A stretch of 64,000 nucleotides of DNA. Source: Panopea generosa (Eukaryota; Mollusca; Bivalvia; Adapedonta; Hiatellidae). The position numbers and the translations under genes were made by a program. Where the stretch lies: NCBI GenBank assembly GCA_029582155.1, contig CM055909.1, positions 47,866,412 to 47,930,411 on the forward strand, in the 5' to 3' direction. The first letter of the stretch is position 1, and each line of letters opens with the position of its first letter. This document shows positions 1,840-55,464 of this stretch, one piece after another. The notes under the pieces were generated by a model. The model saw only the letters and a program-made list of their open reading frames with translations, searched no databases and was not told where the DNA came from.

Positions 1840-3812
1840 AGTAATGTTCTGGGCTTATAACCCATATGATTGTATTAATATTAGTATATATGTCTAACAT
1901 GCGATGTAATCAGTCAAAGGACACAGCCACCACAACAATGTTCTGGGCTTGTAACCGATATGATTGTATTAATATTAGTATATATGTATAACATGCGATG
2001 TAACCAGTCAAAGGACACATCCTCCACAACAATGTTCTGGGCTTGTAACCGGTATGTTTGTATTAATATTAGTATATATGTCTAACATGCGATGTAACCA
2101 GTCAAAGGACACATCTTCCACAACAATGTTCTGGGCTTGTAACCGGTATGTTTGTATTAATATTAGTATATATGTCTAACATGCGATGTAATCAGTCAAA
2201 GGACACATCTTCCACAACAATGTTCTGGGCTTGTAACCGGTATGTTTGTATTAATATTAGTATATATGTATAACATGCGATGTAATCCGTCAAAGGACAC
2301 ATCCTCCACAACAATGTTCTGGGCTTGTAACCGGTATGTTTGTATTAATATTAGTATATATGTCTAACATGCGATGTAATCAGTCAAAGGACACATCCAC
2401 CACAACAATGTTCTGGGCTTGTAACCGATATGATTGTATTAATATTAGTATATATGTCTAACATGCGATGTAACCAGTCAAAGGACACATCCTCCACAAC
2501 AATGTTCTGGGCTTGTAACCGATATGATTTTATTGATATTAGTTTATATGTATAACATGCGATGTAACCAGTCAAAGGACACTTCCTCCACAACAATGTT
2601 CTGGGCTTGTAACCGGTATGTTTGTATTAATATTAGTACATATGTCTAACATGCGATGTAACCAGCCAAAGGACACAGCCTCCACAACAATGTTCTGGGC
2701 TTGTAACCGATATGATTTTATTAATATTAGTTTATATGCATAACATGCAATGTAACCAGTCAAAGGACACAGCCACCACAACAATGTTCTGGGCTTGTAA
2801 CCGGTATGTTTGTATTAATATTAGTACATATGTCTAACATGCGATGTAACCAGCCAAAGGACACAGCCTCCACAACAATGTTCTGGGCTTGTAACCGATA
2901 TGATTGTATAAATATTAGTACATATGTATAACACGCGATGTAACCAACCAAATGACACATCCTCCACAACAATGTTCTGGGCTTGTAACCGATATTATTT
3001 TATTAATATAAGTATAATATATAACATGCGATGTAACCAGTCAAAGGACACAGCCACCACAACAATGTTCTGGGCTTGTAACCGATATTATTTTATTAAT
3101 ATTAGTACATATGTATAACATGCGATGTAACCAGTCAAAGGACACAGCCACCACAACAATGTTCTGGGCTTGTAACCGATATGATTTTATTAATATAAAT
3201 ATAATGTATAACATGCGATGTAACCAGTCAAAGGACACAGCCACCACAACCATGTTCTTGGCTTGTAACCGATATGATTGTATTAATATTAGTGTATATG
3301 TCTAACATGAGATGTAACCAGCCAAAGGACACATTTTCCACAACAATGTTCTGGGCTTATAACCGATATGATTGTATGAATATTAGTATATATGTATAAC
3401 ATGCGATGTAACCAGTCAAAGGACACATCCTCCACAACAATGTTCTGGGCTTGTAACCGATATGATTGTATTAATATTAGTATATATGTCTAACATGCGA
3501 TGTAATCCGTCAAAGGACACATCCTCCACAACAATGTTCTTGGCTTATAACCGATATGATTGTATGAATATTAGTATATATGTATAACATGCGATGTAAT
3601 CCGTCAAAGGACACATCCTCCACAATAATGTTCTGGGCTTGTAACCGATATGATTGTAGTAATATTAATATATATGTCTAACATGCGATGTAACCAGCCA
3701 AAGAACACATCCTCCACAACAATGTTCTGGGCTTATAACCGATATGATTGTATTAATATTAGCATATATGTCTTACATGCGATGTAATCAGTCATAGGAC
3801 ACAGCCAACATT
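1840..3812. repeat. Minisatellite of 94-bp units (about 21 copies)
   Basis: Regular 94-bp head-to-tail units. Each contains AACATGCGATGTAACCAG, a variable AAAGGACACAxCCxCCACAA segment, CAATGTTCTGGGCTTGTAACC, and an AT-rich TATTAATATTAGTATATATG tail. Units are well homogenised in the middle and more diverged at both ends, as expected from unequal exchange. The several reading frames of 60-70 codons on both strands here are translations of this repeat and not genes. Confidence 0.95.
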
Positions 3813-4829
3813 ACAGTCTAAACATACAGTTGTATATATTTCCAACAATAGATTGGAGTCCCGATCGCTCAACAACATTATGTGAGAAAGTATGAAGGTT
3901 ACTTGGTTATACGCAAATTCATTCTAAGGTTTACCTCCGCCAAAAAAAAACAACTGGATATGCCATATATAACCTGAAATGTGTAGAAAATAGCGTTAAA
4001 GCCAATTAAAAAATCAGCATTAAATTATACAAAAGAATATGCGTTATATAAAAGCCATATTTTTATTTCTAATATTATAATATTACTTTCGATCTATTCA
4101 AATACACTAACCTATTATTATGATATAAAACTGAAGTAGACTAAAAATTAACATCTACTTACTAAACATACTGATGTTGTTTTGTTTTTCTTATATCTCA
4201 GTATATTTAGATTCGTGTATTATAGTGTTTATGGTTAATATATATTTCCCCATTCTCCTAAAACCCCATTCAAAAAACAATTCGATCAGTTTGATAGTGT
4301 GAACAGTCTACCGAATTTTGCAAAACAAAATCTGTATTTATCAATAGTATATAAACCATTACGGATATTACAGAAATAAAAAAAAAAATCGGTAAATCAG
4401 CAATTTATATGCCCCCCTGTAATATATAACATTACCAGTAATATATCAATGATGAATTACGTAATTACCTCTTCAATAACCGTTTTTGCTGTATATATAA
4501 TTAAAAAAGGTAAAAACTGACAGCGTTATGAAGTGAATACTAACAGGTGTTGATACCCCTCAAGACGTATCATTGTTCTCAACGTATATAAAACATTTCA
4601 ATTTTAAATGTGTGCGCTACAGAACATCTACACTTGGATTGCTTAGGACGCTTGTTTCACCTAAATTATTTTGGTAATATTTAAATTTAATGATTCATTG
4701 GACGCTGTTATTTTGGACCTGTAACCATTCGTGTGACATCCTTATTGTTATTTAGTGAAACACTATACCATATACTATTACCTGGAAATTTGTAAACGGT
4801 TCTCTAGCATGTATTAATGAATGTGACTC
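3813..4829 (+). other. Spacer and leader block of unit 1
   Basis: AT-rich spacer (3813-4530), then a block that recurs upstream of other copies (near 25280, 40310 and 52610): an AACAGGTGTTG-like start, a TATAAA-like motif, an ACAGAATA/ACAGAACA motif, and a stretch with GACGCTGTTATxTTGGACC. Because coding exon 1 of the gene is preceded by a splice acceptor, a 5' non-coding exon should lie in or near this block. Its donor cannot be fixed from sequence alone. Confidence 0.45.
4585..4593 (+). promoter_or_regulatory. Candidate TATA box, unit 1
   Basis: TATATAAAA followed by CATTTCA. The TATAAACATTTCA core is kept at the matching place in units 3 and 5, about 3-4.5 kb before their start codons, and is degraded in unit 4. 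Conservation of position is the only support. Confidence 0.3.
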
Positions 4830-5250
4830 AGGGAACGGCTAAATATCATGAGATACCGTATAACTCCGACACTGTAAACAATGCAATGTAATTTTATGTA
4901 TGACTCAGGGAACGGCTCAATATCATGAGATACCGAATAACTCCGACACTGTAAACAATGCAATGTAATTTTAAGTGTGACTCAGGGAACGGCTCAATAT
5001 CATGAGATACCGAATAACTCCGACACTGTAAACAATGCTATGTATTTTTAAGTGTGACGTACGGAACGACCCAATATCATGAGATACCGAATAACTCCGA
5101 CACTGTAAACAATGCTATGTATTTTTAAGTGTGACGTACGGAGCTACTCAATATCATGAGATTCCATTAACTTTTACGCTGTTATGTTTTAAAGTGTTTA
5201 TCAGTGAACGGCTCACTATCATGAGATACTGTTAACTCGTAATCTATGTA
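4830..5250. repeat. 75/76-bp minisatellite, unit 1 (about 5-6 units)
   Basis: Short form of the repeat found upstream of every gene copy. Each unit holds AGTGTGACxCAGGGAACGGC, then TCAATATCATGAGATACC, then AACTCxGACxCTGTAAACAATGC. Units are lost gradually towards 5250. It lies between the leader block and the splice acceptor of coding exon 1, so it is probably in the 5' UTR intron or proximal promoter. Confidence 0.9.
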
Positions 5251-5589: not shown

Positions 5590-6934
5590 ATGTTTTCCGA
5601 AATAAGACGCAATGCTTTTGTTGTACTTTTATGTGTGCCCATCATGACACAGGTACATGGTATAAAACTGGAAAGAACTGAAAGGTAATTAACTATATTA
5701 CAGGGAAGTGTTAGCTTAGTTATGATATCATATTTCGTGAATCATTTCCAGTTCAGTTGATAAATATGAAAGCATTGATAATTTTACTCCACAATTGGAT
5801 TCAGGGCTATTGTTGCAAAGACATTAAGGTAAAGGCAACACAACAACAATCTATATGGTGCTTTTTGTTGGATTTACAAACACATACTACTACTACTATA
5901 AAGTTACGCTACTTTTGGTGACGATAACACGCTAATTGCAAAACTATTTTTAATATGGTTTAGCTTATAAGAAAACCCTCGTTTTATAAATACAGTAGAA
6001 CTTCCCATATTGCCATTTAATCTTTTTTTTTAAAATTTGGTTTAGATTAACAGGCAATAATCGTTTTATAAATACCTAGTACAAATTATTGGCCGGGAGA
6101 TGATTTTACACGCATTTGACTATTTAGAGCACATGACGGATCTACTCTTTAAAATAAAAACAGGCGCACGTCCCACAAACCCACGCTCCTTAAACTCAGA
6201 TTTTGTAGTGCTGCCCTTAAGTATGATTCCTCTAAACTGAAGTCCTGCAACTTGATTGTATATGGTTGTTTATGTTTCAGAGCAGTGGACGGTGTAACAG
6301 ATTATATGAGGCAGAGCTGGTCAATATGGTTTATAAGTTTGGATACCAACAAAGATGGATTTTTGTCTGTAATAGATCGGGATATGGAAATGTAATACAT
6401 TTAAGGAATTTATTTTATTTATCTAGCATTCATTCACTGACTTAAAGTGGATATGAGCATATAACATTCCCGAGGTAGTATTTTAATTCTTTAAGAGTTA
6501 TATCCCTTGTTCATAATTGTTTTGATTCCCTAAAAGGCTGAAAGTATCAAATCACTGAAGCTATCGTTTTACGTTTGTATGAGTATGTTAGTTCAAAAAA
6601 GGACAGAAATAAAGTATCGATCTGTTTTTATAATTATGACTCATGTCAGTAGCTGCGTAGATATTGTATTTCTTTCATTGATGGGGTTGAAGGCCATTAA
6701 CACATTTCAGGTTATTTATGTCATATCCGGTTTTATTGGCGGAGGAAGACCTCAGGATGATTCTGAAAAGAACCTGCATCCTTCCACAACTAACTGACAA
6801 ACTTTCTCACATAAATGTTTTGGATCGAGCGGTACTCGAACCTATGACCTTAGCGTGAGAGGCAAGTGATATTAAGACGGTGCCATACGCCACTCGGTCA
6901 CGGGGTTGGGCAGGTGTGTGTGAGGGGGGTTGGG

Positions 6935-14540: not shown

Positions 14541-15335
14541 CACAAAAAAATGTAGTTTTAATGGAAGCTGTTTGAATCATTTCTGTCTACTGACATAATT
14601 AACAGTAAATAAACGGTAAACTTGAATTTATACGCGGGTTGAACATAAAACAATGATGTCATCAATTTGTGTGTTGCTGCCTGGTAAACGTTCTCTGTCG
14701 ATAAACATGGTATCAAATTCAATTGGTTTTACTATGCTCAGAGCTATGTGCCACTTATTAAACAAAACTCTGCTAATCGGGATACTAAAGATGACATCAG
14801 TCCGTATACCTCGCTTTCAATTAGCCAACCGAAATACGACTAAACAGTGATCAACTAACCACGGTATAACAGAAAACACCGAAGAGTAATACTACAATTT
14901 TGTTTATAAGTCCGTTATCGAACACGAACTAATGATGTTAGACATCAAAATGTCAGCAGGTGATTAAAAGTAGAAGAAATTAGGAAATTATCTGAAAACA
15001 GATAGCGTTTACTTTTAGAAGATCTCTTAAATTGTACTTTTATGTGTGCACATTATGCGACAGGTACATGGTGTAAAATTGGAAGAAACTGAAAGGTAAT
15101 ACAACTATTTACAGGGTAGTGTTAGCTTAGTCATTGCATCATATTTCTTTCCAGTTCAGTTGATAAAGTTGAAAGCATTCATCATTTTACTCCGCAATTA
15201 GATTCTTAGCTAGTGGTGTAAACTAATATTATTAACGTCTCGCTATAAAGATACCTTTTGGTGACGATAAGACGCTTATTGCAAAAGATTTTTTAATTTG
15301 GTTTAGATTATAAGACAGCGCTCGTTTTATAAATA

Positions 15336-18300
15336 CAGTAGAACTTCGTTGGCTCGAACATGGATGGCAGGAACACCATATATAGCCCAAACCACTTAGC
15401 TGGTCCGGGCAGAACTCCTATTTCGATGTATATTCTCGTATGGTATGATGTCGAACAATAGTTGGATGGCTGGAACACCATATATAGTCCAAACCACTTA
15501 GCTGATCCGGGCAGAACTCCTATTTCGATGTATATTCTCGTATGGTATGATGTCAAACAATACTTGGATGGCTGGAACACCATATATAGCCCAAACCACT
15601 TAGCTGGTCCGGGCTTAACTCATATTTCGATGTATATTCTCGTATGGTATGATGTCGAACAATACTTGGTTGGCTGGAACACCATATATAGCCCAAACCA
15701 CTTAGCTGGTCCGGGCGTAACTCATATTTCGATGTATATTCTCGTATGGTTTGATGTCGAACAATACTTGGATGGCTGGAACACCATATATAGCCCAAAC
15801 CACTTTGCTGGTCCGGGTGTTACTCATATTTCGATGTATATTCTCGTATGGTATGATGTCGAACAATACTTGAATGGCTGGAACACCATATGTAGCCTAA
15901 CCACTTAGCTGGTCCGGGCATAACTCCTATTTCGATGTATATTCTCGTATGGTATGCTATCAAACAATACTTAGATGGCTAAAACACCATATGTAGCCAT
16001 AACCACTTTGCTGGTCCTGTCAGAACTCCTATTTCGATGTATATTCTCGTATGGTATGATGTCGAACAATACTTGGATGGCTGAAACACCATATGTAGCC
16101 ATAACCACTTAGCTGGTCCGGGCAGAACTCCTACTTCTATGTATATTCTCTTATGGTATGATGTCGAACAATACTTGGGTGGCTGAAACACCATATGTAG
16201 CCATAACCACTTAGCTGGTCCGGTCAGAACTCCTCTTTCGATGTATATTCTCGTATGGTATGATGTCGAACAATACTTGGATGGCTGGAACACCATATGT
16301 AGCCATAACCACTTAGCTGGTCCGGGCAGAACTCCTATTTTGATGTATATTCTCGTATTGTATGATGTCGAACAATACTTGGATGAATGGAACACCATAT
16401 GTAGCCATAACCACTTAGCTGGTCCGGGCAGAACTCCTATTTCTATGTATATTCTCTTATGGTATGATGTCGAACAATACTTGGATGGCTGGAACACCAT
16501 ATATAGCCCAAACCGCTTAGCTGGTCCGGTCAGAACTCCTCTTTCAATGTATATTCTCGTATGGTATGATGTCGAACAATACTTGGATGGGTGGAACACC
16601 ATATGTAGCCATAACTACTTAGCTGGTCCGGGCAGAACTCCTATTTCGATGTATATTCTCGTATGGTATGATGTCGAACAATACTTGGATGGCTGGAACA
16701 CCATATGTAGCCATAACCACTTAGCTGGTCCAGGCAGAACTCCTATTTCGATGTATATTCTCGTATGGTATGATGTCGAACAATACTTGGATGGCTGGAA
16801 CACCATATGTAGCCATAACCACTTAGCTGGTCCAGGCAGAACTCCTATTTCGATGTATATTCTCGTATGGTATGATGTCGAACAATACTTTGATGGCTGG
16901 AACACCATATGTAGCCATAACCACTTAGCTGGTCCGGGCAGAACTCCTATTTCGATGTATATTCTCGTATGGTATGATGTCGAACAATACTTGGATGGCT
17001 GGAACACCATATGTAGCCATAACCACTTAGCTGGTCCAGGCAGAACTCCTATTTCGATGTATATTCTCGTATGGTATGATGTCGAACAATACTTTGATGG
17101 CTGGAACACCATATGTAGCCATAACCACTTAGCTGGTCCAGGCAGAACTCCTATTTCGATGTATATTCTCGTATGGTATGATGTCGAACAATACTTTGAT
17201 GGCTGGAACACCATATGTAGCCATAACCACTTAGCTGGTCCAGGCAGAACTCCTATTTCGATGTATATTCTCGTATGGTATGATGTCGAACAATACTTGG
17301 ATGGCTGGAACACCATATGTAGCCATAACCACTTAGCTGGTCCGGGCAGAACTCCTATTTTGATGTATATTCACGTATGTTATGATGTCGAACAATACTT
17401 GGATGGCTGGAACACCATATATAGCCCAAACCGCTTAGCTGGTCCGGTCAGAACTCCTCTTTCAATGTATATTCTCGTATGGTATGATGTCGAACAATAC
17501 TTGGATGGGTGGAACACCATATGTAGCCATAACTACTTAGCTGGTCCGGGCAGAACTCATATCTTGTGATGTATATTTTCGTATGGTATGATGTCGAACA
17601 ATACTTTGATGGCTGGAACACCATATGTAGCCATAACCACTTAGCTGGTCCAGGCAGAACTCCTATTTCGATGTATATTCTCGTATGGTATGATGTCGAA
17701 CAATACTTGGATGGCTGGAACACCATATGTAGCCATAACCACTTAGCTGGTCCAGGCAGAACTCCTATTTCGATGTATATTTTCGTATGGTATGATGTCG
17801 AACAATACTTTGATGGCTGGAACACCATATGTAGCCATAACCACTTAGCTGGTCCGGGCAGAACTCCTATTTTGATGTATATTCACGTATGTTATGATGT
17901 CGAACAATACTTGGATGAATGGAACACCATATGTAGCCATAACCACTTAGCTGGTCCGGACAGAACTCCTATTTCGATGTATATTCTTGTATGGTATGAT
18001 GTCGAACAATACTTGGATGACTGGAACACCATATGTAGCCATAGCTACTAAGCTGGTCAAGTCAGAACTCCTTTTTCGTTGATATTCTCGTATGGTATGA
18101 TGTCGAACAATACTTGGGTGGCTTGAACACCATATGTAGCCATAACCACTTTGCTGGTCCGGACAGAGCTCCTATTTCGATGTATATTCTCGTATGGTAT
18201 GATGTCGAACAATACTTGGATGGCTGGTACCATATGTAGCCATAACCACTTAGCTGGTCCGGGCGTAACTCATATTTAGATGTATATTCTCGTATGGTAC

Positions 18301-18496
18301 GATGTCGAACAATACTTGGGTGGCTGGAATACCATATGTAGCCATAACCACTTAGCTGGTCCGGGCAGAACTCCTATTTCGATGTATAATTTTGTATATG
18401 TATGGTATGAGGTCGAACAATACTTGGCTGGAACAAACCCTCAACTCAAACTATTTTGTCCTGTCCCGTTGGGTTCGAGCCATCGAAGTTCTACTG
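15336..18496. mobile_element. MITE expanded internally to 3.16 kb, intron 1 of copy 2
   Basis: Bounded by TA on each side, with terminal inverted repeats CAGTAGAACTTCGTTGGCTC at the left and the complement, ending CGAAGTTCTACTG, at the right. The same element in copy 3 is 204 bp. The 2957-bp excess equals almost exactly 29 units of 102 bp. TA flanks and CAGT termini suggest the Tc1/mariner/pogo group, which is an inference from ends only. Confidence 0.85.
15355..18440. repeat. 102-bp tandem repeat (about 30 units) inside the MITE
   Basis: Each unit holds TGGCTGGAACACCATATxTAG, CCxxAACCACTTAGCTGGTCC, GGCAGAACTCCTATTTCGATG and TATGATGTCGAACAATACTTG. The edge units carry ATATAGCCCAAACC and the central ones ATGTAGCCATAACC. 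A pair of variant units near 16440-16640 recurs near 17350-17550, showing block duplication. 102 is divisible by three, so reading frames of up to 442 codons run through it on both strands. They are repeat translations with no splice signal, signal peptide or domain. Confidence 0.95.
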
Positions 18497-19029
18497 TACT
18501 TTGTACAAAGAATAGGAGATGAACTTGCACCCAATTGACTATTAGTAGTAACTTGATTCTGTTTTGTTGGTTATGTTTCAGAGCTGTAGACGGTGTTACA
18601 GATTATCTGAGGGAGAGCTGGTTAATATGGTTCATAGGTATGGACATCAACAAAGATGGGTTTTTGTCTGTAATAGATCGGGATATGGAAAGGTAATACA
18701 TTTAAGGAATTCACTGTTACACACAGTATTTGTTTAACATTCATTAGCTATTATTGACTGACTTCAAGTGGTTATGAATATATAACTTTCCCGTTGTAGT
18801 AATGTATTTCTTCCAAGAGTTGTATCCCTTATTCACAAATGTTTTGATTCCCAAAAAGGCTGGACATATCAAATCACTGAAGTTCTTGTTTTATGTTTGT
18901 ATGAGCATGTAAGTTTATAAAATAACAAAAAATAAATTATCGTTCTGTTTTTTTTTTCAAGTTGTGCATAATGTTAAGGACAGCATCGATTTTATTTTTT
19001 TGATGGGGCTTAACGCTATTTTCAACATA

Positions 19030-25574: not shown

Positions 25575-25870
25575 GTATTTTTAAGTGTGAACCAGGGAAC
25601 GGCTCAGATTCATGAGATAATGTTAACTCGGACGCTGTAAACAATGCAATGTATTATTAAGTTTGGCCCAGGGAACGGCTCAGGTATCATGAGATAATGT
25701 TAACTCGGACGCTGTAAACAATGCTAAATATTATTAAGTGTGGCTCAGGGAACGGCTCAGGTATCATGCGATACTGTTAACTTGGACGCTGTAAACAATG
25801 CTAAATATTATTAAGTGTGGCTCAGGGAACGGCTCAGGTATCATGCAATACTGTTAACTCGGACGCTGTA
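25575..25870. repeat. 75/76-bp minisatellite, unit 3, first block (about 4 units)
   Basis: Units with GGGAACGGCTCAGGTATCATG and AACTCGGACGCTGTAAACAATGC. Separated from the second block at 28195 by about 2.3 kb of unrelated AT-rich DNA. Confidence 0.9.
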
Positions 25871-28194
25871 TAATGACGTGTGTCAGATGTTGGAGTACAT
25901 TACAAATATCTCGTACTTATCAAGTTTACAATATCGTCATTTATCGAAAATTTAATGGAGATTATAACATATGTCATTATATTAAATTATTGTTACTCTT
26001 TTTAAGTACAAAATAAAAAAAAATATTGAAAGAATTTGATTTTATAATATTCAAAACATACATTTCTAAAACGTCAAAAAACGTCTGTGTAAGATTTAAC
26101 TAAATCGTAAAACCGATTAAGAAAAACGCATGAAAATCAGTTTCGTGCTATGATTTTTTAGTTCAAAATCCATTATTTGAAGTGTTGTTAAGAGTTCTAA
26201 GCGACGTAACGATTACAAACCAGAAATCAACACAGCTGATAAACAAAATTTGCGAAGTAGGAAAAGTTATTTTCTTTCACCGACTCGCTATGTAAAACTC
26301 GTATTTAAAATGTCTTTTGTATATTCTACATACTCCGTTTTCTCAATAAAAACACTTCTTTATACCATTTTATTTAATTCTCTTTGACGAATTATTGATA
26401 TTTCTCACTGGATTATTTTATGGTAATCCAATGTTTCAAACAGTAAATTATGAAAAAAAATGTTTTAATTTTTTGCCCTTTCATATAGATTTAAGAAAAA
26501 ATATTTAACAAAAAGTACTTTAGTTTTTTTATTATACCTAATATATCTAATGGCGAATTTAGGTCAAAACAAATAAATAATATGTAAATGCATAAAATAA
26601 GAATATGACTTTTGGTGATCACTTGATGAAATATAATTCGATCTTACACCAAAGTAAACAAATATCCTCTTTTTAATATCAATCTATTTTAGAGAAAAAA
26701 CTGAAGTATTATCTACATTAAGTGAAATTAATTTTCTAGCCGCGATGTAACATTTGTAAAGTAGTTGACAAAAGTAAATTCTAACAAAATTTGTCGTATT
26801 TTCTGACAGTGTGGCCGGTTTGGAAGTTAAAGATGTTTATACATACAACGTATGTCTTCATATATGATTTTGGTGTTATTTTCCCACTGTCTAGCCATGA
26901 TGTAAATGTAAGACCGTAAAAACAATTAAAGTTAACGTCATTTTCTACAGGCATATAAAGTGCAATAAGAGGTCAATTACCGATTATTTCGTCTACAACA
27001 TAATAATACATTTGCTATGTCAAAGTTTTAATCTAGTCTGTCTTCTAAACTTTATTATATTATCCCATACAGTGATTCAATTAGCCAACCAATCAATCAA
27101 AACCAATAAGTCAATCATTTATTAAAAATCAATATATTGAATATTCTTATGTGGTTGTATTTTAATATAACCATGATATATTTTACTAAATAAAGTACTA
27201 TAGTTACCGTCAACAATTAAGGAAAGTTGTATATTACATCCCGTTTTCTTTTTCAATCATAAAATGTAAAGCGTTCCTTTGACTTATAGTTATCTTTATT
27301 GTTCGATTATGGTTTCTTATCCGCATTGCTGCGCGCACAAAATGACCTATTTATGTGTCGACGTGCCGTAAAACACCATTCATTCATTCATTATCCGCAT
27401 TGTAACGGGTGTTAATTTGATCATGAGACTTAATTTTGGTCACATGACTTTATCTTTCTGCACTGCGATTGGTAACATTTGTAACCCCAAGTGTACCGCT
27501 TTTGTGCGGTTTAAGACCAAGAGTTTATGTTTAGGCCTTTTTGGGACAAGAAGCAATAGATGGAAATAATCAAAATTATGTTTTAATTTAGAACTTTTCA
27601 AATTAACATTACGAAGAAAGTAAAAATGGATATTACTTAAATTTATACACTACATCATTAACCGTTTTTGAAGAAGTATTTTCTACAAATTAATTAACAC
27701 AACGTTCTTTCATACATTACCAAAACGACATCAGATTCTTGAATACTGTATGAAAAAATGTGCTTACTGATACCGGATTGCTGAATACTGTAGATAAAAT
27801 CTGTTTACCGAAATCGGACTCCTGCATATGATAAAAGTGATTACACTGAACGTATTTATGCAATTGCATGCTATTGTGCGTTTGGTTGCTGAAACATGCA
27901 TTCATAAACGGATATAATCAAACGGCTTCAATATATATATTGGACTTTATGTATAAATAGCATGAAATTATAAAATCATGAAGAAAAAAGAAATATTGTA
28001 AGAAAAAGAAACACATTACCCTATTTAATAAAAGTTTCTTGTAATATTAACATCAAAGTTTTGTTATTTATATCTACGTTTGATATATAAATACTAACTG
28101 AACCGTTTAATTAAAGCCGAAAATCGACACGTTACGTCGTGTTACGGACCATAGGCCAACATCTGACGCAACGTCGTATGCAATGCGATAAGTG
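25871..28194. other. 2.3-kb AT-rich insertion splitting the unit 3 array
   Basis: Very AT-rich, no open frame of note. 26065-26340 matches 40635-40910 in unit 4, where the intervening part is deleted. At 27335-27397 a fragment with GACGTGCCGTAAAACACC followed by (ATTC)n looks like the 3' tail of a SINE. The nature of the rest is unknown. Confidence 0.5.
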
Positions 28195-29345
28195 TGACCC
28201 AGGGAATAACTCAGGTATCATGCGATACTGTTAACTCGGAGGATGTTAACAACGCTATGGATTTAAGTGTTACCCAGGGAACGGCTCAATAGCATGACAT
28301 ACCATTAACTCTGATGCTGTAAACATAATTTTTTTAAGTGTTACCTATGGAACGGATCAGGTATCTTGACTGTAAACTTCGACGCTGTTAACAATGCGAT
28401 GTATTATTATGTGTGACCTACGGAAGGGCTCAGGTGTCATGTGATACCATTAACTCTGATGCTGTATACAATGCTATGTATTTTGAAGTGTGACCCATGG
28501 AACGGCTCAATATCATGAGATACCACAACTCGGACGCTGTTTGTGTATATAAGGTGTACCTCGAGGAACGGCTCAATATCATGAGATACAATTAACTCAG
28601 ACGCTGTTCAGAATGCTATGTATTTTTAGTGTGACCTAAGGAACAGCTCAATATTATGAGATACCATTAACTCGGACGCTGTAAATAATACTATGTATTT
28701 TAAGTGTGAAATTGGGAACAACTCAATATACCATTAACACGGACGCTGTTAAGAATGCTATGTATTTTAACTGTGACCTAATGAACGGCTCAATAGCATG
28801 AGATACCGTTAACTCGGACGCTGTTAAGAATGCTAAGTATTTTAAGTGTGACCCATTGAACAGCTCAATATCATAATATACCATTAACACGGACGTTGTT
28901 AAGAATGCTATGTATTTTAAGTGTGACCTAATGAACGGCTCAATAGCATGAGATACCATTAACTCTGGCGCTGTTAAGAATGCTATGTATTTTAAGTGTG
29001 ATCCATTGAACAGCTCAATATCATAAGATACAATTAACACGGACGCTGTTAATAATGCTATGTATTTTAAGTGTGTCCTAGTGAACGGCTCATTAGCATG
29101 AGATACCATTAACTCGTACGCTGTTAATAATGCTATGTATTTTAAGTGTGACCTAGTGAACGGCTCAATATCATGAGATACCATTTACTTGGACGCTGTT
29201 AAGAATGCTATGTATTTTAAGTGTGACCCATTGAACGGCTCAATATCATGAGATACCATTAACTAGGACGCTTGTATTTTTAATGTGACCGAGGGAACGG
29301 CTCAAACATCATGAGATAATGTTAACTCGTATTCTATGTATTATT
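28195..29345. repeat. 75-bp minisatellite, unit 3, second block (about 15 units)
   Basis: Diverged units with GAACGGCTCAATAxCATGAGATACCA and ACTCGGACGCTGTTAAGAATGC. The two halves of neighbouring units alternate (TCATAATATACC against GCATGAGATACC), hinting at a two-unit higher-order period near 28720-29100. The 153-codon minus-strand frame is a repeat translation. Confidence 0.9.
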
Positions 29346-29787: not shown

Positions 29788-31670
29788 ATGTTTTCCGAAA
29801 TAAGACGCAATGTTTTGGTTGTTCTTTTATGTGTGCCCACCATGCCACAAGTACATGGTATAAAACTAGAGGGATCTGAAAGGTAATATAACTATATTAT
29901 AGGGTAGTTTTATTTTAGTTATACGTCCTATTTCTTGAATTCTTTCCATTTCAGTTGATAAAGTTGAAAGCATTGATCATTTTCCGCAATTAGATATTTA
30001 ACTAGATTTGCAACATCAACAAAGCAACAAGCACCCAACAACAACCAATAGTGTGATTTTTGTTTGCTTTCCAAACACATACTACTACTACTACTACTAC
30101 TACTTACGTCTCGCTATAAAGTTACGCTCCTTTTGGTGACGATAGGGCGCTTATTGCAAAACAAACGTTTTATAAATACAGTAGAACTTTGTTGGCTCGA
30201 ACACGGATGGCTGGAACACCACATATAGCCCAACCCACTTAACTGGTCCCGACAAAATTCCTATTTCGATGTATATTCTTGTACATGTATGGTATTATGT
30301 CGAACAATACATTGCTCGAACAACCTTTAACTCGAAATATTTTGACCAAGCCAGTCGGGTTCGAGCCATCGAAGTTCTACTGTACCTTGTACAAAGAATA
30401 GGAGATGAACTCGCACCCAGCTGACTATTAGTAGTAACTTGATTCTGTTTTGTTGGTTATGTTTCAGAGCTGTAGACGGTGTAACAGATTATCTGAGGGA
30501 GAGCTGGTTAATATGGTTCATAGGTATGGACATCAACAAAGATGGGTTTTTGTCTGTAATAGATCGGGATATAGAAAGGTAATACATTTAAGGAATTCAC
30601 TGTTACACACAGTATTTGTTTAGCATTCATATGCTATAATTGGTGGACTTCTATTGGATATGAGCATATAATAGTCCCGTTGCAGTATTTTATTACGTTC
30701 AAGAGTTATTTCCTTTGTTTACAGATGTTTCGATTCCCAAAAAGGCTGGACATATCAAATCACTGAAGCTATAGTTTTATGTTTGTATGAGCATATAAGT
30801 TTATAGAATAACAGAAATAAAATATCGTTCTGTTTTTCAAGATGTGCATAATTTTACTGACAGCGTATATATTGCGTCTTTTTAATGAGGCGTAACGCTT
30901 TATTTTAACATATACCAGGCTATATTAAATTTATGTTATATCCAGTTTTTCTGGTGGATGAAAACTTCAGGATGAATCTGAGTAGAACCGTTCTTTCGCA
31001 AGTGACTGGCAAACATTATCACATAAAGATTTTGGACTCCAATTACGACCTCAGTGGTGAGAAGTAAGTGATCACGTGGACAATTCGTCCACGGAGAGTT
31101 CTTAGCTATTGTATCAAGCAGACAACGAACAGAAATGACGAAGGACGCTGTTAAACGAAATAAAAATCAGCTAGTTTATTCCAATAAATAATATTGTTTC
31201 CTTGCAGGGATATGTTAACAGCTGCCTTCGAGTTGAGCCCTGAAAAGTTATCCGAAATGATTTATTCAACTAAACTTTGGTGGGAGGAGTTCATCCTACA
31301 AGGTGACAACTCGAACAAAATTTCTAAGGAAGACTTCGTTCAATACTTAAGTAAAAGATATCTGGAGGACAAACATTTTAGAGCCAATGCTGTGGTTTTT
31401 CAAGATATAATCGGTGAAATAACTGATGCCGATGAAGATGGAAAAATATCCAAGGATGAATTCTTTGCTATTGAAAATGCTTTCAATTTCAAGAATAAAA
31501 AAATTACAGAAGAGTTTTTTTACGCATTCAAACCTATTGAGGATAAAGTACCAATGAAACAGATGGCTAGAGCATGGGCAGATTTTAATGCCAATAATCA
31601 TGAAACAAATAATTTTGTCAGAAAATATATGATTAAAATTTTTGGTTTGCAAGATCAGTTCACGTATTGA
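29788..31670 (+). CDS. Secreted SCP-like EF-hand protein, copy 3 (3 exons)
   Basis: Coding exons are 29788-29882, 30468-30578 and 31208-31670; 222 aa, GT/AG, phase 2. The start follows the acceptor TTTTGTTTTCAG plus AATAAC. Signal peptide: basic RR at 6-7, then NVLVVLLCVPTM, cleavage probably after VHG. EF1 loop 53-64 is DINKDGFLSVID. EF3 loop 142-153 is DADEDGKISKDE, with Ala at position 2 where the sisters have Val, which should not affect binding. EF2 and EF4 are degenerate. Exon 2 and its flanks are nearly identical to pseudogene copy 2 (REWLIWFIG-type residues RESWLIWFIGMD), whereas exon 3 is nearly identical to copy 4, so the gene is a mosaic. No disabling change is seen. Inferred role: export-pathway or extracellular calcium-binding protein. 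Confidence 0.9.
30179..30382. mobile_element. Intact 204-bp MITE in intron 1, copy 3
   Basis: Flanked by TA on both sides. The left end CAGTAGAACTTTGTTGGCTC pairs with the complement of the right end GAGCCATCGAAGTTCTACTG. Contains a single copy of the segment that forms the 102-bp array in copy 2. No coding capacity. Confidence 0.85.
30930..31115 (-). mobile_element. Intronic SINE, copy 3
   Basis: Orthologous with the intron 2 SINE of the other copies. Here the tRNA-like head is decayed (GACCTCAGTGGTGAGAAGTAAG) and box B is barely recognisable. Confidence 0.5.
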
Positions 31671-34624
31671 TGCATATTCATGCAATTACTATTTTTATTT
31701 GATATATTCACTGCTAAAATACACAAACTTTACCAGTTATTGAACTATTTTGATCAAATGATTTGCATGTAAGAACATTCGATTGAAAAAGACACACCAC
31801 AATTGACATATTCATGTACAAGTTACAAATACTTGCATTTTTACTTTAACTTTTGGTTATTTGCTTGAAGGGATGCACGGTAGGTCTGCAATCATGCCGG
31901 AGTATGCTATTTTAATTTCACTTTTCATTTGCATCATGAAATCATATAATTTACAGAAACAATGTAAGGAGGATAAAATATCAAAACTGACATATGTTGA
32001 TCGCAAGGAAGAACGCTATACATGTTTCTTTAATAAATATTAAAGTTTAATGTTTGATTATTTGCTTTGTTTGTTTCCTTTGAATAAATATATATAATCA
32101 AATCATGTTTTTGAGTTCTTTTAAATAGTAAATAAATATTCCTATAAATTGCATTGATTTGAAGAAGGTAGTGTGAACGAACACGTATATGAATCATATC
32201 AAATTTAAAACAAAAATATCCGCTTTGCCCTCTGTATATTTTGGTTGTTATTTATGGCATTTGTTCTACTGTAATTATTTAATAACCAATACAAATTGAC
32301 CAAATTGAAACAAGTGTTTGAGATTATAATTCCACATATAGGTTTTTATTCACAAAAAGGTATATGTTATCTTTCTTGTTGTCTAATTCATGATATGATC
32401 ACATATAAACACATTGTGATAAAATTAGTGAGAAATATGAACTTCAATTTAATATCAATTATAATAATTTTCAGAAACAAGTGGACAATGAAGCCCGGAA
32501 TCTCCAAACTGTGGTACATGATATAGTGATAAAAAATATATTATTTTAAGAGCCACAACTATGTATGTAACATAAACGTTATTTGAGGTTACACGGCATT
32601 TTGGTACCTTGATGAAAATCTCACTACAAATACTAGATTTAGAAGTCACTCAAATACATGTTTTTATCAGATTAACATATCATCGAAGATATTATGGCAA
32701 TAATTAGAGCTGTAAAGATGCAAAGTTTGCTAGAACGTACCCTAGACAAATATAGCAATGTTTAATGAATGTACTGATTTAAGGGCTATGGCATCAACAC
32801 TAAGTATTGAAACCTGTCTGATATGGTTACATAACTAGTACATGCGTTTTTCGAATACAAGTGTCATAACTCTTACATTTATTTAGTTCTCCGATTTACC
32901 ATGTTTCAACTTGCCAATGCCCTGTATTTGACTGGTAGTGAAATAACATTTCATGCGGACTATTTTAATATTTTTCATTCAAATACGTGCCCAACATATT
33001 GCCATCGAAAAGTATACAATTGTATTTAAGCCAAAAGGATCAATAGGATACTAGAATAAATGCTTTTCCCGACGATATGCATTAATGTTCGGTACGAAAT
33101 CACAACATTTACTCCGTAGATTATCTCGTTGTTGTGTTATCTCAGAAATAACAAAAATATATTTAAATGTAAAATTATTTATAAGTTCTAAGACATAGCT
33201 CATAGACAGAAACATTTCAAAATCCTAGTTGTTCTTAGTAGGTCTATCAGTTGTATTGCGTTCGAGTCGCGCATTAATTTATAACATTTGTCAATTTTTA
33301 ATGTTTTTTAATGGTCTTAAGTCTTTCAAAATTATTTAAACATTACTATATGCATTTTTTTACTAATATTTACGATACTTTGCTTTTAAATGCAGTTCTT
33401 TTGGATCCAGTAGTTAAACTTCTTTTCACCGCGCATTTATTCTTATAGAGGTGTACTTTAAAATTTTTGGGTGGCAGTCGGCCAAGTGGACAGCGTTAGA
33501 AAGCCAGCATTGGTACTATGGCATTTGGGGTAAGCTCTAGGCAAAAAACAGTAATTATTAATCACATAATTTGCTGCATAACTAGTGCGCTTAGCTGGTT
33601 CAAATGACACATAGTAAAGCAAGTTTAACATTTGATCTAATCAATTGATTTCTTTCATCCTCTGACAATGAGTCAGATTTAATTATTATCCTTCTGGTGA
33701 ACTGTTAATTACATACAGTTGCAATTAACAACGGATGTTACCGGTAGCCCGAAGATTGATTGATTTGAAACTAAACGGTACAGTGGTGCCCCATATGTCA
33801 TTGTATTTTCCTGTGGAAATGTTAGTAAGGCAAGAGGACAGAGAACAGCTCGACATGTAAGGCAGCTTGTCAGTTGCTTAAGTGTAAGCCCACCATTGAA
33901 TTTTTGTTCTTTATTACATAGTAAATAAAAACACATTTACAGAATTTCAATTCATAGAAAGACCAAAATGAAAAAAGCGAAACATTGTATTGTTGATCAA
34001 CCACTGCGCTGACATATGATAAGAAAAGAAAGGACCATGTTTCATCCAAGACGTATGAGACTAGGCTTTGAAATTTAATTATAACCTTCAAACATAAATT
34101 TTGTCGTTCTTTACATTTTAATGAATATGTTTGGGGTGACAAAATAACCAAAACGAAATTCATTCAGGAAAGTCATTATACGACTACAACCACTAAAGCA
34201 CGGAATACGTTTTTATTTGTGATTCCTTTATATAATATAACTGGAAAATGTAATCTAAATGATAAAGTACATACTTACATACCAATTCAATAAACATTAA
34301 TTTTCATTTATTTTGTTGTTTATAACATTATCAAACGTTATTGTAGTTATATTGTAGCCGTGAATGTTAACAGGTCTAACCGTATCTTTGTCCTCACCTT
34401 ATATACTTCAAATTTAGATACATATCCGAAAGAAAAAATATACTGTATTTAACTCTGTGTGTGAACTTCGTTACTGATTGGTGGGTACGCTTCTTTCAGC
34501 CAAAATATTTTGGTATTTAAAAACGGTTCTTTGGACCCTGTAACCGTTCTTGCGACATCCTTAATTGTCAGCAGGTGAACGGGTAAACGTTTTACTACTC
34601 TCGGGGATTGTGTTCTATGTGGTA
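31671..34624 (+). other. 3' UTR and shared 3' flank of unit 3, leader of the relic unit
   Basis: Contains AATAAA at 32083-32088 in the conserved TTTGAATAAATATATATAATC block, the conserved block near 33725-33885, and a type 1 leader near 34370-34580. No independent gene seen. Frames in this stretch differ between units. Confidence 0.5.
32083..32088 (+). terminator. Polyadenylation signal AATAAA, copy 3
   Basis: Within TTTGAATAAATATATATAATC, about 410 bp after the stop codon, aligned with units 1, 4 and 5. Confidence 0.55.
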
Positions 34625-34835
34625 TTTTAAATATGACTAAGAGAACTGGTCAATATCATGAGATACCGTTAATTCTGACGCTGTAAATGATGCTAGGTAC
34701 TATAAAAAATGGTGGCTCGGGGAACGGCTAAGTAGTGTGAAGTATCGTTAATTCCGTCGCTGTAAATGGTGTTATGTACTATTAAGTGTGGCTCAGGGAA
34801 CGGATCAATATCGTGAGATACCGTTATGTATACAT
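34625..34835. repeat. 75/76-bp minisatellite remnant (about 3 units)
   Basis: Three diverged units (GAACGGCTAAGTAGTGTGAAG, GAACGGATCAATATCGTGAG) upstream of the relic gene, the smallest array of the series. Confidence 0.8.
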
Positions 34836-34840
34836 CATGT

Positions 34841-35309
34841 ACATTTGAAAAGTCTGAAATGTAATATCAAAGGCAGTTGTTGTTTGCTAGCGTAATAATT
34901 ACATCTAAATTCTTGCATTTATTCCTGAAACGAATAATAATATACTAATTTCAAAAGCATTCGTCATTTGTACTCCACAATAACTTCTTAGCTAGTGTTA
35001 TCTGTACATTATACTTTATACAAGCTAATAAGCAACACAACAACAAGCAATATATTTATATTTCATTTCAATATCTATGATATTACTATCAATGTTTCAC
35101 TACAAAGTTACGTCCTGTAGGGCGGTGCTCGCAATAGGAAATTCAAGAAAAAAAATATTTTAGAAGAGTTTTTCTATGCATACACACCTATTCAAGATTA
35201 AGTACCAATGCGACAGATGTCTAGATCATGGACGATTTGAATGCCGACAAAAATAAAACAAATAATTTCGTCAGAAATTTTTGGTTTGCAAGATCAGTTC
35301 ACGTATTGA
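34841..35309 (+). pseudogene. Relic EF-hand gene with most exons deleted
   Basis: The end of exon 1 and its donor region survive at about 34841-34867 (TTTGAAAAGTCTGAAATGTAATAT against GGATCTGAAAGGTAATAT in copy 3). Intron 1 follows with the CGTCCTxTxGGGCGGTGCTCGCAATA stretch and then jumps directly to the middle of exon 3 at 35141-35309. Exon 2, the MITE, intron 2 and the first half of exon 3 are gone. The exon 3 part has an in-frame TAA (ATTCAAGATTAAGTACC) and an internal deletion before GGTTTGCAAGATCAGTTC. The 3' flank continues normally, with AATAAA at 35825-35830. Confidence 0.85.
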
Positions 35310-38300
35310 TGCATATTCATTCAATTACTATTTTTATTTGATATATCACTGCTAAAATACACAAACTTAATTGAATTATTTTGATAAAATGATTTGCATA
35401 TAAGAACATTTGATTGAAAAAGACACACCGTTCATGTACTGATGCATATTTGTCCAATGACATTTTATTTGATGTACTCACAGCTCAAATACACAACCTT
35501 TACCAGGTATTGAATTATCTTCATAAAACGAATCGCATTTTAGAACATTCGATTGAAAAAGGCACACCACAACTGACCTATGGTCATGTACTTGAAGAGA
35601 CGCACGGCAGGTCTGCAATCATTTCAGAGTATGATATTTTAATTTCATTTAATTTCATTTTATTTCATTTGAATCATGCAAACATATACATTTTAGAAAC
35701 AGTTTAAGGAGGACAGATTATCAAAACTGCCATATGTTGATCAAAAGTATAAACGCTTTACATCTTTTTTTGGAAAAAAAATGAACGTGTAATGTTGGGT
35801 TATATGCTTTGTTTGTTTCCTTTGAATAAATATATTTAATTAAGTCATATTTTGGAGTTATATTTGTCTTACATAGTCATAAATATTCATAGACTTCGCA
35901 TTGATTTGAAATAGGCAGTGTGAACAATTACGTATATGTATCATTTATAAGATAAAACAAAAAAAATCCGCAATGCCCTTTTGAATATTTTGGTAGTTAT
36001 CGATGACAATGTCTTTTACTGTAATAATTTTATAACAGATACTTACTGATCATATTTAATCAAGTATTTGAGATTACAATTCAATAGGTATTTATTCACA
36101 AAATATGTTCATGTTATCTTTATTGTTATCTGTTATCTAAGGCTATGATGTATATTGTGATATCACACATTGTGATATAAATTAATATGAAATAAGAATT
36201 TCAATATATCAATTCTAATACTGGTGGTGAGAAACAAGTGGGCCACGAAGCCTAGAATCGCCCAACTGTGCCATATGAGATCGTGGTAAATAATTGATTA
36301 TTTTTGGAGCCACAACTTAGATATGCTTGTTATATAAGGCCTTATTCAAACAGAAGCTGGGGTCACACGGTATTAGATAACTTTGTGAAGATCCGAAAAC
36401 AAACACTATCTTTGGGGTATAGTACACATGAGTACGTGAAATAAGACATTTGTTTTAATAGTACATCATGGACCATTACATTTATAATTATTATTATTCT
36501 TGGATTTGGCCGGTTGAAAAACCTGTTTAAGATCGCATTGAAACTGCTGTGTGTGTTCAATTAAGATTTAATTGAATATGCAGGAGCAAAAGGACACACA
36601 TCGTTCAATAATACCGTTTTTACAATTTAAATGTCATAATATAGACTTTGTTAATTGAATTGGCCAGATATTAATATCATCGGAGATAGTATGGTAACAT
36701 ATCTACTTCATAAGAGTGGAAAATATCCATTGTAAAAGGTGAGTGCTATAGCGTAACCTGAACCAAATAGAGCAATTAATGATGACTTTGATGTTTCAAT
36801 GTCTACAACGCCAACACTAATTATCAAAACCGGTCTGAAATTGTATAAGTTATAACTACTGTTTACGTCTGGATAAGATCCAATGAAAAAAAGCGAGTGC
36901 TAGAGAAAACAAACTAATCAGGGCATTTTAGAGGATACAACGGACATAACTCATACATTTGTTATCCGATTGACCTAGTATCAAAAACGTGTCATGTCAC
37001 CCGGTATTATATGACATGATAAAGGGTGATTGAATATATTTAGGTAGCTAGTGAAAAAACCTTTCATTCGGACTACTTCAATATTTTCCTTCAAATTAAT
37101 GTCTCCAAAATTTTGCTATTGAAACATATGCAATGGTACTTTAGCCAAAATGATGATTAGATATAAAAGCAAAATTCCTTTTTCTCGAAATGTTCATTAG
37201 GTTAGGTACCAAAACAATTACTCCTTGGAGCATACCTTTGTTGTGAAATAGCAAAATTATAAAAACATGTACAAATATTCTGATTGAAGAGTTAATAAAT
37301 TACTCATAACATAAAACACATTTCAAAATCCTAGCTGTTCAATTTGTGTTTATCAGTTGCATTGCTTTGTTACTTACAGATTTAAACAAGATGTTTCAAC
37401 AAATTCTACAAATGCTTGGCATGTTTCACCATTGACCAAAACATATCCTCTATATAAAATTCAAAGCGCTAATAGCCCGAAGCTGCTGATGGATTGGTGG
37501 GGAAGTACGTTACACATTTTTCAAATTCTACCCCAAGAAGCATAGAGTTTTTAAAATTATTCTACTGTTAGGTTTAATATTCACAAAAGTACGATTTCTT
37601 TGTCCCTCTTTAAATTATCCGTGCATATCACATAAAATTACAGAACTTTATATTCATATGAATAAAAGGATGATTTATTTGGTACCGCCAGGTTTTTCCA
37701 ACAGCAAAATGTAATGCCAAATAATTTATTTTTTCGGTACTTATTTTAAAAGGATGTGGCTTCTATAATTATTTATCGATTTTCAGTCACTTATCCAGAC
37801 TACATTATGTTTCTAACACAATCACATAGCGATTTAAAACAAACGATAAGTGAAAAAACTTCCCCTTACTCTGCATCACTTTTACCAGTTACACAATAAC
37901 CTGCATTTCCAAATAGGAAGTTGATTGAACCAGTCCAGTATAGTTGGGTTACACAACATCAATCCGCTGGACTGGTTACTCTACCTCCTATTCGGTCTCA
38001 GTCAAGATATATAGATTGGCTGCTGTATGCAGATGACGAATTATAATGATGCATTTTTTAGAGGTGTATTTTGCACGGTTTGGTTGACAGTCAGTCAGAT
38101 GGATAAAGTACGAAATTCCGAATTGTTACATTGGGATAAGCGCCAGGCACAAAAACACTTATTAATCACATAATTTCAACAAATACATACAGTTGCAAAA
38201 ACAACGAATGTTACCAGAGGCATGAAGTTTGAACGATATAAAACAAAACGGTAAAGCGGTGGACAGGGACTTCGATATTGACAACACTAAGGTCCACACC

Positions 38301-40904: not shown

Positions 40905-43330
40905 GATGTAAACAATGTTATGTATTATCAAGTGTGACCAGGGAACGGCTCCGGTATCATGCGATACTGTTATCTCGGACGATGTAAACAATGCTATGTA
41001 TGATCAAGTGTGACAAGGGAACGGCTCCGGTATCATGCGATACTGTTATCTCGGTCGATGTAAAAATGCTCTGTATTATCAAGTGTGACAAGGGAACGGC
41101 TCCGGTATCATGCGATACTGTTATCTCGGTCGATGTAAAAATGCTTTGTATTATCAAGTGTGACAAGGGAACGGCTCCGGTATCATGCGATACTGTTATC
41201 TCGGTCGATGTAAAAATGCTTTGTATTATCAAGTGTGACCAGGGAACGGCTCCGGTATCATGCGATACTGTTATCTCGGTCGATGTAAAAATGCTATGTA
41301 TTATCAAGTGTGACCAGGGAACGGCTCTGGTATCATGCGATACTGTTATCTCGGTCGATGTAAAAATGCTTTGTATTATCAAGTGTGACAAGGGAACGGC
41401 TCCGGTATCATGTGATACTGTTAACTCGGACGATGTAAACAATGCTTTGTATTATCAAGTGTGACAAGGGAACGGCTCCGGTATCATGCGATACTGTTAT
41501 CTCGGTCGATGTAAAAATGCTTTGTATTATCAAGTGTGACAAGGGAACGGCTCTGGTATCATGCGATACTGTTATCTCGATCGATGTAAAAATGCTTTGT
41601 ATTATCAAGTGTGACAAGGGAACGGCTCCGGTATCATGCGATACTGTTATCTCGGTCGATGTAAAAATGCTATGTATTATCAAGTGTGACAAGGGAACGG
41701 CTCCGGTATCATGCGATACTGCTATCTCGGTCGATGTAAAAATGCTTTGTATTATCAAGTGTGACAAGGGAACGGCTCCGGTATCATGCGATACTGTTAT
41801 CTCGGTCGATGTAAAAATGCTATGTATTATCAAGTGTGACAAGGGAACGGCTCCGGTATCATGCGATACTGTTATCTCGGTCGATGTAAAAATGCTATGT
41901 ATTATCAAGTGTGACAAGGGAACGGCTCCGGTATCATGCGATACTGTTATCTCGGTCGATGTAAAAATGCTTTGTATTATCAAGTGTGACCAGGGAACGG
42001 CTCCGGTATCATGCGATACTGTTATCTCGGTCGATGTAAAAATGCTTTGTATTATCAAGTGTGACAAGGGAACGGCTCCGGTATCATGTGATACTGTTAT
42101 CTCGGTCAATGTAAAAATGCTATGTATTATCAAGTGTGACAAGGGAACGGCTCCGGTATCATGCGATACTGTTATCTCGGTCGATGTAAAAATGCTATGT
42201 ATTATCAAGTGTGACAAGGGAACGGCTCCGGTATCATGCGATACTGTTATCTCGGTCGATGTAAAAATGCTTTGTATTATCAAGTGTGACCAGGGAACGG
42301 CTCCGGTATCATGCGATACTGTTATCTCAGTCGATGTAAAAATGCTTTGTATTATCAAGTGTGACAAGGGAACGGCTCCGGTATCATGTGATACTGTTAA
42401 CTCGGACGATGTAAACAATGCTTTGTATTATCAAGTGTGATCAGGGAACGGCTCCGGTATCATGCGATACTGTTATCTCGGACGATGTAAACAATGCTAT
42501 GTATTATCAAATGCGACCAGGGAACGGCTCCGGTATCATGTGATACTGTTAACTGTTAACTCGGACAATGTAAACAATGCTATGTATGATCAAGTATGAC
42601 CAGGGAACGGCTCCGGTATCATGCGATACTGTTATCTCGGTTGATGTAAAAATGCTTTGTATTATCAAGTGTGACAAGGGAACGGCTCCGGTATCATGTG
42701 ATACTGTTATCTCGGTCGATGTAAAAATGCTATGTATTATCAAGTGTGACCAGGGAACGGCTCTGGTATCATGCGATACTGTTATCTCGGTCGATGTAAA
42801 AATGCTTTGTATTATCAAGTGTGACAAGGGAACGGCTCCGGTATCATGTGATACTGTTAACTCGGACGATGTAAACAATGCTTTGTATTATCAAGTGTGA
42901 CCAGGGAACGGCTCCGGTATCATGCGATACTGTTATCTCGGACGATGTAAACAATGCTATGTATTATCAAATGCGACCAGGGAACGGCTCCGGTATCATG
43001 TGATACTGTTAACTCGGACGATGTAAACAATGCTTTGTATTATCAAATGTGACCAGGGTACGGCTCCGGTATCATGCGATACTGTTATCTCGGACGATGT
43101 AAACAATGCTATGTATTATCAAATGCGACCAGGGAACGGCTCCGGTATCATGTGATACTGTTAACTCGGACGATGTAAACAATGCTTTGTATTATCAAGT
43201 GTGACCAGGGAACGGCTCCGGTATCATGCGATACTGTTATCTCGGACGATGTAAACAATGCTATGTATTATCAAATGCGACCAGGGAACGGCTCCGGTAT
43301 CATGTGATACTGTTAACTCGGACGATGTTA
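40905..43330. repeat. 75/76-bp minisatellite, unit 4 (about 32 homogenised units)
   Basis: Two forms alternate in blocks: a 76-bp form with ACTCGGACGATGTAAACAATGC and a 75-bp form with ATCTCGGTCGATGTAAAAATGC, one base shorter. The 75-bp form dominates and is almost identical from unit to unit, which points to recent amplification. Blocks of about 240 bp near 42360-42600 and 42840-43320 repeat as higher-order units. Because 75 is divisible by three, frames of 332 and 336 codons run through both strands. They have no start context, splice sites or domain. Confidence 0.95.
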
Positions 43331-43990
43331 ACAATGCAATCGATTTAAGGGTTATCCAGGGAACGGCTCATTATCATGAAATACCATTAACTCTGAGCTG
43401 TAAACAATGTATTTTTAAGTGTTACATGTACCCATGGAACGGATCAGGTATCATGACTGTTAACTTGAATGCTGTAAACAATGCGATGTTTTATTAAACG
43501 TGACCTAGTGAACGACTCATGCTATACTGTTTACTCGCACGCTGTAAACGATTTGATGAATTATTAAGTGTGACCCATGGAACGGTTCAGGTATCATGAG
43601 ATACTGTTAACTCGAATGTTGTAAACAATGCTATGTATTTTAAGTGTTACCTATGGAACGGCTCAATATCATGAGGTACTATTAACGCGGACTCTGTTAA
43701 GAATGCTATGTATTTTAAGTGTGCCCCAGTGAACGGCATAATACCATGAGGTACTATTAACGCGGACGCTGTTAAGAATACTATGTATTTATGTGTGATC
43801 CAGGGAACGTATCAATATCATGAAATACCATAAGCTTGGACACTTTTAAGAATGCTTTGGATTTTAAGTGTGAACGAGGGAACATCATAAGATAATGATA
43901 ACTCGGGCTCTATGTATTATTAAGCGTGAATCGGGCACGGCACTAGATCATGAGACACCGTTTAATCGGACTTTTATGTATCATAATTTA
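43331..43990. repeat. Degenerate edge of the unit 4 array (about 8 units)
   Basis: Older diverged units (CCATGGAACGGATCAGGTATC, ACGCGGACGCTGTTAAGAATG) with indels, grading into the unique sequence before the gene. These resemble the unit 3 and 5 arrays more than the homogenised core. Confidence 0.8.
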
Positions 43991-54840: not shown

Positions 54841-55464
54841 TTGGACTCTATATTTTATATAGCATGATCCCGAAATATCATTTAATCGGATTTGTATATA
54901 TCATAATTTAAAATGACATTTTGAATGGTACCTACATAAATAAATAATAAATTCTCACATTCCTGACTGTTTATGGTAAAGCAAAAACAGTAATTTATCA
55001 ACTTAAAGTGTCGTTACTACACTGTACGATGCACAGCTATACTAAGTACTTGATAAGCAGAATATGGAGAAATTGCTTGTATCATTTTAAAATGAATGTG
55101 TATGATCTGGCTCCTGTTTCACCAACATATACTTTAATACTTTAAAACTTAAATCTAAAAAAAGCAGCCAGGTGATCATGATTTTAGACAGGTTCCAGTT
55201 AAACTGCATATTGTGTCGATGATATTGAGTATATAATAGATAAATAACCAGTCAAAACTTAGTTAAGTTTTTAAGTAATTAAGTAAAATGTTGGTGAAAC
55301 AGAAGCCTGGCCGGGAACTGAAGCTGCATGGACCCGCACATGAGATAAACATATAACCATTATTGTCTTTTAGTGTCAAACGAAACGGTTTGATGGTTTG
55401 TTTGTTCATGTAAGTTTTGTTTTATCTTTAATTAATTTGACTTTAATTTTGTTTTCAGAGCAGC

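Follow-up and report, generated by a model that had tools for sequence, protein, structure and literature searches.

How a satellite acquires its first units is, as a rule, deduced from old arrays. The locus described here raises the question of whether such a beginning can be seen beside its starting point: at one and the same intron site of a tandemly duplicated gene, a MITE of 204 bp in one gene copy has a counterpart of 3161 bp in another, and the latter is filled by a tandem array. Gene duplication has preserved the one-unit state next to the 30-unit state. We consider it very probable that a single insertion of the MITE was followed by duplication of the gene and then by an expansion in copy 2 only, driven by unequal exchange. 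The window, i. e. the whole stretch of 64,000 nucleotides that was analysed (C16:47866412-47930411 of a 1.47-Gb genome in 39 contigs), contains five tandem copies of an EF-hand gene region.

Three joined exon pieces of the gene match Pfam EF-hand families, and their best match in the PDB is a sarcoplasmic calcium-binding protein (9l5m, E 2.5e-14); from these matches, the host gene is predicted to be a sarcoplasmic-calcium-binding-protein-like EF-hand gene. Between copies 3 and 4, short pieces at 35121-35836 match the last exon of the EF-hand gene and the region following it, perhaps a partial sixth gene copy.

The element in copy 2 has the limits, the TA flanks and the inverted termini that a first-pass annotation of the window had assigned to it (Table 1). 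A single inverted match was listed from one side of the array to the other, and it is that of the element ends (29 positions, 93%, E 5e-8); the termini are CAGTAGAACTTCG. The fairly fixed short length and the many dispersed copies by which MITEs are recognised are seen in its family: the consensus, derived from 40 elements, is 204 bp long, and the core of the one-unit element has 1,918 matches in the genome (976 + 942; control 0). TA target-site duplications, as for Tc1/mariner/pogo MITEs, are present at either end of the element in copies 2 and 3 and flank most, not all, of the sampled family elements with a recognised left end. Moreover, the array of an internal segment lies within intact termini, as in tandem-repeat-containing MITEs. 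By these features, the copy-2 element appears to be a non-autonomous, TA-targeting MITE. The DDE_1 family (PF03184) has 152 matches in the genome, a plain count with none of them tied to the termini of the MITE. The literature, searched with the terminal sequence, yielded a single, unrelated paper.

Table 1. Features of the window and internal arrays in other members of the MITE family.
Feature	Position	Strand	Size or repeat	Basis or remark
Expanded MITE, gene copy 2	15336-18496	+	3161 bp	CAGTAG...CTACTG ends, TA on either side
Left TA target-site duplication	15334-15335	.		Sequence flanking element
Right TA target-site duplication	18497-18498	.		Sequence flanking element
Left terminal inverted repeat	15336-15359	+	~24 bp	Inverted match 15331-15359 to 18473-18501, 93%
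Right terminal inverted repeat	18473-18496	-	~24 bp	Pairs with left end in inverted match
Tandem array	15361-18431	+	30 units of ~102 bp	Tandem Repeats Finder and unit split
Last unit, longer form (TATATG stretch)	18318-18424	+		Unit split; 108-column match 18317-18424
Exon directly after array-bearing intron	18582-18694	+		Bounds approximate (by eye); conserved in copies 1, 3, 4, 5
Unexpanded MITE, gene copy 3, same site	30179-30382	+	204 bp	TA-flanked; site alignment
One-unit MITE, gene copy 4, left terminal repeat deleted	44780-44960	+		Site comparison
MITE right-end remnant, gene copy 5	55754-55812	+	~last 59 bp	Site comparison
MITE left-end stub after TA, gene copy 1	5993-6004	+	12 bp	Exact CAGTAGAACTTC behind conserved flank
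L030			56 bp x 13.5	Internal array, right-end sample
L032			33 bp x 2.3	Internal array, right-end sample
L044			94 bp x 1.9	Internal array, right-end sample
L009			113 bp x 2.2	Picked for repeated look
L010			105 bp x 2.0	Picked for repeated look
L011			99 bp x 7.8	Terminus within unit; picked for repeated look
L012			103 bp x 3.2	Picked for repeated look
L013			56 bp x 5.6	Picked for repeated look
L109-L116, L118, L119			55-56 bp units	Junction searches
L117			58 bp units	Junction searches
L120			61 bp units	Junction searches
L121/L122			122 bp units	One segmental duplicate; junction searches
L123			117 bp x 7.3	Runs past examined stretch; junction searches

That copies 2 and 3 share the element, its intron site, its inverted termini and its TA flanks had been claimed from the window alone and was borne out, as was a size difference of 2957 bp (3161 versus 204 bp), almost exactly 29 x 102 bp. 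Compared across all five copies, the element is whole in copies 2 and 3, whereas copy 4 has lost the left end and copies 5 and 1 retain remnants; the expanded form is found in copy 2 only. Since the MITE or its remnants lie at one site across the gene copies, the insertion appears to be older than the gene duplications. The K2P distance over 1 kb of flank is 0.16 between copies 2 and 3, 0.195 between 2 and 4, 0.194 between 2 and 5, and 0.149 between 3 and 4. As the distance between copies 3 and 4 is no larger than that between copies 2 and 3, the latter two are not clearly sisters: the unexpanded state is indeed kept in copy 3, and also in the truncated copy 4, but the term sister copies is a loose one. 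Judging from the one-unit copies 3 and 4 and the remnants in copies 5 and 1, the array most likely grew in place once the insertion had been duplicated with the gene.

For the array, Tandem Repeats Finder gives a period of 102 bp, 30.1 copies and 92% matches. After a split into 30 units, the spacing is exactly 102 bp in 25 of 29 cases and 100, 101, 101 and 104 bp in the rest, and the first and last unit starts are 2956 bp apart. The array nowhere extends past the termini and lies wholly within the element, as the first-pass annotation had stated. Its proposal that a 102-bp internal segment was amplified agrees with the 30 units of about 102 bp, but 29 of them are without an ancestral stretch of about six bases that is kept by the last unit and by the copy-3 element. 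The family consensus has the longer middle form, matching the TATATG form of the last unit, and the 102-bp unit that was amplified is a derived form.

The arrangement of the units has the marks expected of unequal exchange, i. e. a homogeneous centre, alike neighbours and repeated blocks: (i) The central units are nearly identical and the edge units divergent, and the divergence from the consensus rises toward the edges (Spearman 0.68, p 5e-5, 29 units). (ii) Adjacent units resemble each other more than they do after shuffling (6.79 versus 8.02 differences, P 0.0004). (iii) Identical runs of 120-203 bp occur at offsets of 1, 2, 3, 4, 5, 7, 9 and 10 units, units 12 and 21, nine units apart, are identical, and variants partly recur in the unit blocks 10-13, 20-22 and 25-26. 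The mean pairwise difference of the first 29 units (7.9%, uncorrected) is smaller than the flank distance between copies 2 and 3 (K2P), and homogenisation among the units makes the age of the array uncertain. The array length is taken from one assembly, and long arrays can be mis-sized, the more so with near-identical central units and exact runs of up to 203 bp. Still, we regard an assembly artefact as highly improbable: the first 29 units differ pairwise at up to 19 of about 102 positions, the edges are divergent, the variant blocks are ordered, the element contains no N, and a faulty assembly would more probably misjudge how many central units there are than create the array itself.

Unequal exchange can also shrink a tandem array, and copy 3 taken by itself could be such a collapsed array. 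However, copy 4 likewise has one unit, and copy 3 retains the stretch that is missing from 29 of the 30 units. The family points in the same direction: the exact right end with TA has 159 matches in the genome, and in a sample of 80 elements among the 100 matches listed, 58 show a left end upstream when up to five mismatches to the terminus are allowed, 40 are 190-210 bp long, with a mean identity to the consensus of 0.897, and only three contain internal tandem repeats. Finally, the genome was searched for other arrays of the 102-bp unit by its head-to-tail junction (up to three mismatches, 1.47 Gb), and none was found elsewhere: all 27 matches lie in the window array, which has 29 junctions, and the reversed pattern used as a control had no match. 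Copy 3, the truncated copy 4 and the length of the family members all support an ancestral state of one unit. Copy 3 is unlikely to be a collapsed array, and an ancestral array reduced to one unit in copy 3 (and 4) is very improbable.

The internal amplification within a MITE that had been read from the window is supported by the one-unit copies 3 and 4, the position of the array inside the termini and the restriction of the junction to this locus. The birth of a satellite within a transposon, also claimed, is right in so far as the array has grown inside a MITE, but it is a single-locus array rather than a genome-wide satellite: unlike satellite DNA in the strict sense, the 102-bp unit is not arrayed beyond one locus. 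The 56-bp unit of the same family, in contrast, occurs at many places.

Repeated insertion of the MITE into itself would place a terminus within the unit, and in another family member (L011) the unit does include the left terminus and starts after TATA. The units of the window array are all free of terminal repeats, and the sequence of the locus contradicts nesting; the arrival of an already expanded element is opposed by the one-unit MITE that occupies this site in copy 3, which indicates that the insertion predates the array. An origin of the array by either route is extremely improbable.

For growth in place, the following course would account for the locus. A single MITE would have inserted into the intron of the EF-hand gene before the tandem duplication of that gene. 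Within the element of copy 2 alone, some 108 bp would have been duplicated, probably through faulty repair or replication where short stretches of the element resemble each other; 6 bp would then have been lost from one unit, which is the simplest order of events. Unequal exchange between misaligned units, rather than rolling circle, would have raised the 102-bp form to about 29 units and left the termini unchanged. The element may be prone to duplication because of its scattered copies of a CTCGAAC-like motif. The family offers a series of arrays from two units up and in several registers, and together with the paired states at the window locus it makes this two-step model, duplication at short similarity and then unequal exchange, testable by junction counts.

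The internal arrays in other family members have periods of about 33, 56-61, 94, 99, 103, 105 and 113-122 bp, and the window array is thus one of several births and not unique. Loci L009-L013 were chosen for their repeated look, outside the right-end sample, and L109-L123 through junction searches. The 56-bp junction has 533 matches in the genome; the 100 listed fall in 19 places, and one place among them spans about 5.5 kb on C18. Junctions of the 113-type and the 105-type have seven matches and one match, respectively. At 12 loci with 55-61-bp units, both termini were detected at three (L109, L113, L115), one at five and none at four (up to four mismatches), counts in which several arrays reach the edge of the examined stretch. 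For 14 loci with such units, identity is 0.92 inside a locus and 0.83 from one locus to another. A single 56-bp dimer that transposed and gave rise to all 56-bp arrays was not supported in a weak test: the array loci were not clustered among the 40 one-unit elements (7 label changes against a mean of 7.5 in 500 shuffles, 194 of which were as low) in an almost unresolved tree, for which 8 of the 14 loci had a usable right part, one of these (L112) being a poor match with a long branch. L121 and L122 were also considered as two transpositions of one dimer; their alignment (677 bp, 97%) includes the flanks, so that they form a segmental duplicate. At L011 (C2:35343600-35345500), the 99-bp (and 85-bp) unit at 565-1310 holds the left terminal repeat, with eight termini in a row. 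This array could be a nested insertion that was then amplified, and L044 is also a candidate for nested insertion.

CTCGAAC-like words are present at positions 17, 32, 50, 136 and 152 of the consensus. Such words are joined in the 33-bp and 113/117-bp registers, with exact microhomology of 8 and 12 bp; in the 56-bp register, the partner of the first word is the less similar GGCCGAA (4 bp), and in the 99-bp register, TATA is linked to the terminus (4 bp). Exact microhomology is 2 bp at the window junction, 2 bp for the 105-bp, 1 bp for the 103-bp and 0 bp for the 94-bp register. Taken alone, the window junction has microhomology no better than chance (2 bp are reached by 14.5% of random pairs). 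For the eight junction classes together, the mean is 4.1 bp versus 0.69 bp for 12,336 random pairs, and none of 50,000 draws was as high, the junctions having been placed on the consensus by hand after being seen, not blind. A looser similarity measure also indicated enrichment (P 0.0014); these ungapped measures were the second tried and replaced a gapped alignment of junction similarity that gave no enrichment (P 0.85), presumably because the alignment extended into further motif copies. We see evenly balanced chances that the MITE family is a recurrent satellite nursery, in which arrays would have started independently at many insertions because 204 bp hold scattered copies of the motif, the period being set by the similar spots that were joined. 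Motif-motif or motif-terminus joins would give periods of 33, 56, 94, 99, 102-108 and 113-119 bp, and the range of possible satellites would be largely written into one short element.

The precedents of Xstir, miDNA4 and the bivalve Pearl/CvA and BIV160 elements mean that the formation of satellites from MITEs is already known, and the window array is one clean instance of this process. According to the account in PMC12628747, miDNA4 of Xenopus (Scalvenzi and Pollet 2014) is a Tc1/mariner MITE with an internal satellite; it resembles the window family as a TA-type MITE with an internal repeat present as one monomer or as an array, and microhomology has been proposed as the cause. In miDNA4, a captured repeat varies in number, whereas in the window family the element's own sequence was duplicated, in several registers, and paralogous gene copies bracket one of the births. 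The tandem repeats of the Xstir/Xmix MITE of Xenopus (Hikosaka and Kawahara 2004), as summarised in PMC12628747 and PMC9659126, likewise derive from the MITE interior; for Xstir, a stem-loop between two neighbouring elements was proposed, in contrast to the single element at one site in the window. Tandem repeat-containing MITEs of the clam Donax trunculus (Satovic and Plohl 2013, a title cited in PMC8268682) share the internal array and the bivalve host, a likeness judged by title and not by sequence. The Pearl/CvA, HindIII and BIV160 satellites of bivalves, as tabulated in PMC9659126 and PMC6947457, are similar as satellite-like arrays borne by small class II elements and, by description rather than by sequence, are different elements from the window MITE. 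The window locus adds the paired states before and after expansion at one intron site, together with a MITE family that has several coexisting registers; no statement on several registers from one MITE family was found in the parts of the literature searched, which is not proof of absence. The family-wide array pattern is worth a full survey.

The window contains further arrays of other periods. A homogeneous 94-bp array (1843-3803, 20.9 copies) lies near a diverged 68-bp array (211-1572) at the start of the window. Related arrays of 75-77-bp units are found by the gene copies (4822-5162, 28189-29272, 40905-43883 and 52912-54846), with a further related array at 25576-25870 and a fragment near 34622-34826. 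Their lengths are very different, about 4 to 39 units, and as the flanks are partly homologous between copies, they may be paralogous arrays of unequal size. The 68-, 94- and 75-77-bp arrays were also considered as internal to MITEs; a search of their flanks for inverted matches revealed no clear terminal repeats, even the top matches being A+T-rich and weak (best E 3e-4). At seven loci (L029, L036, L058, L079, L080, L090, L107), unrelated arrays with 20-54-bp units begin no more than about 1.2 kb from a sampled MITE end, and four of these seven arrays are longer than 1 kb.
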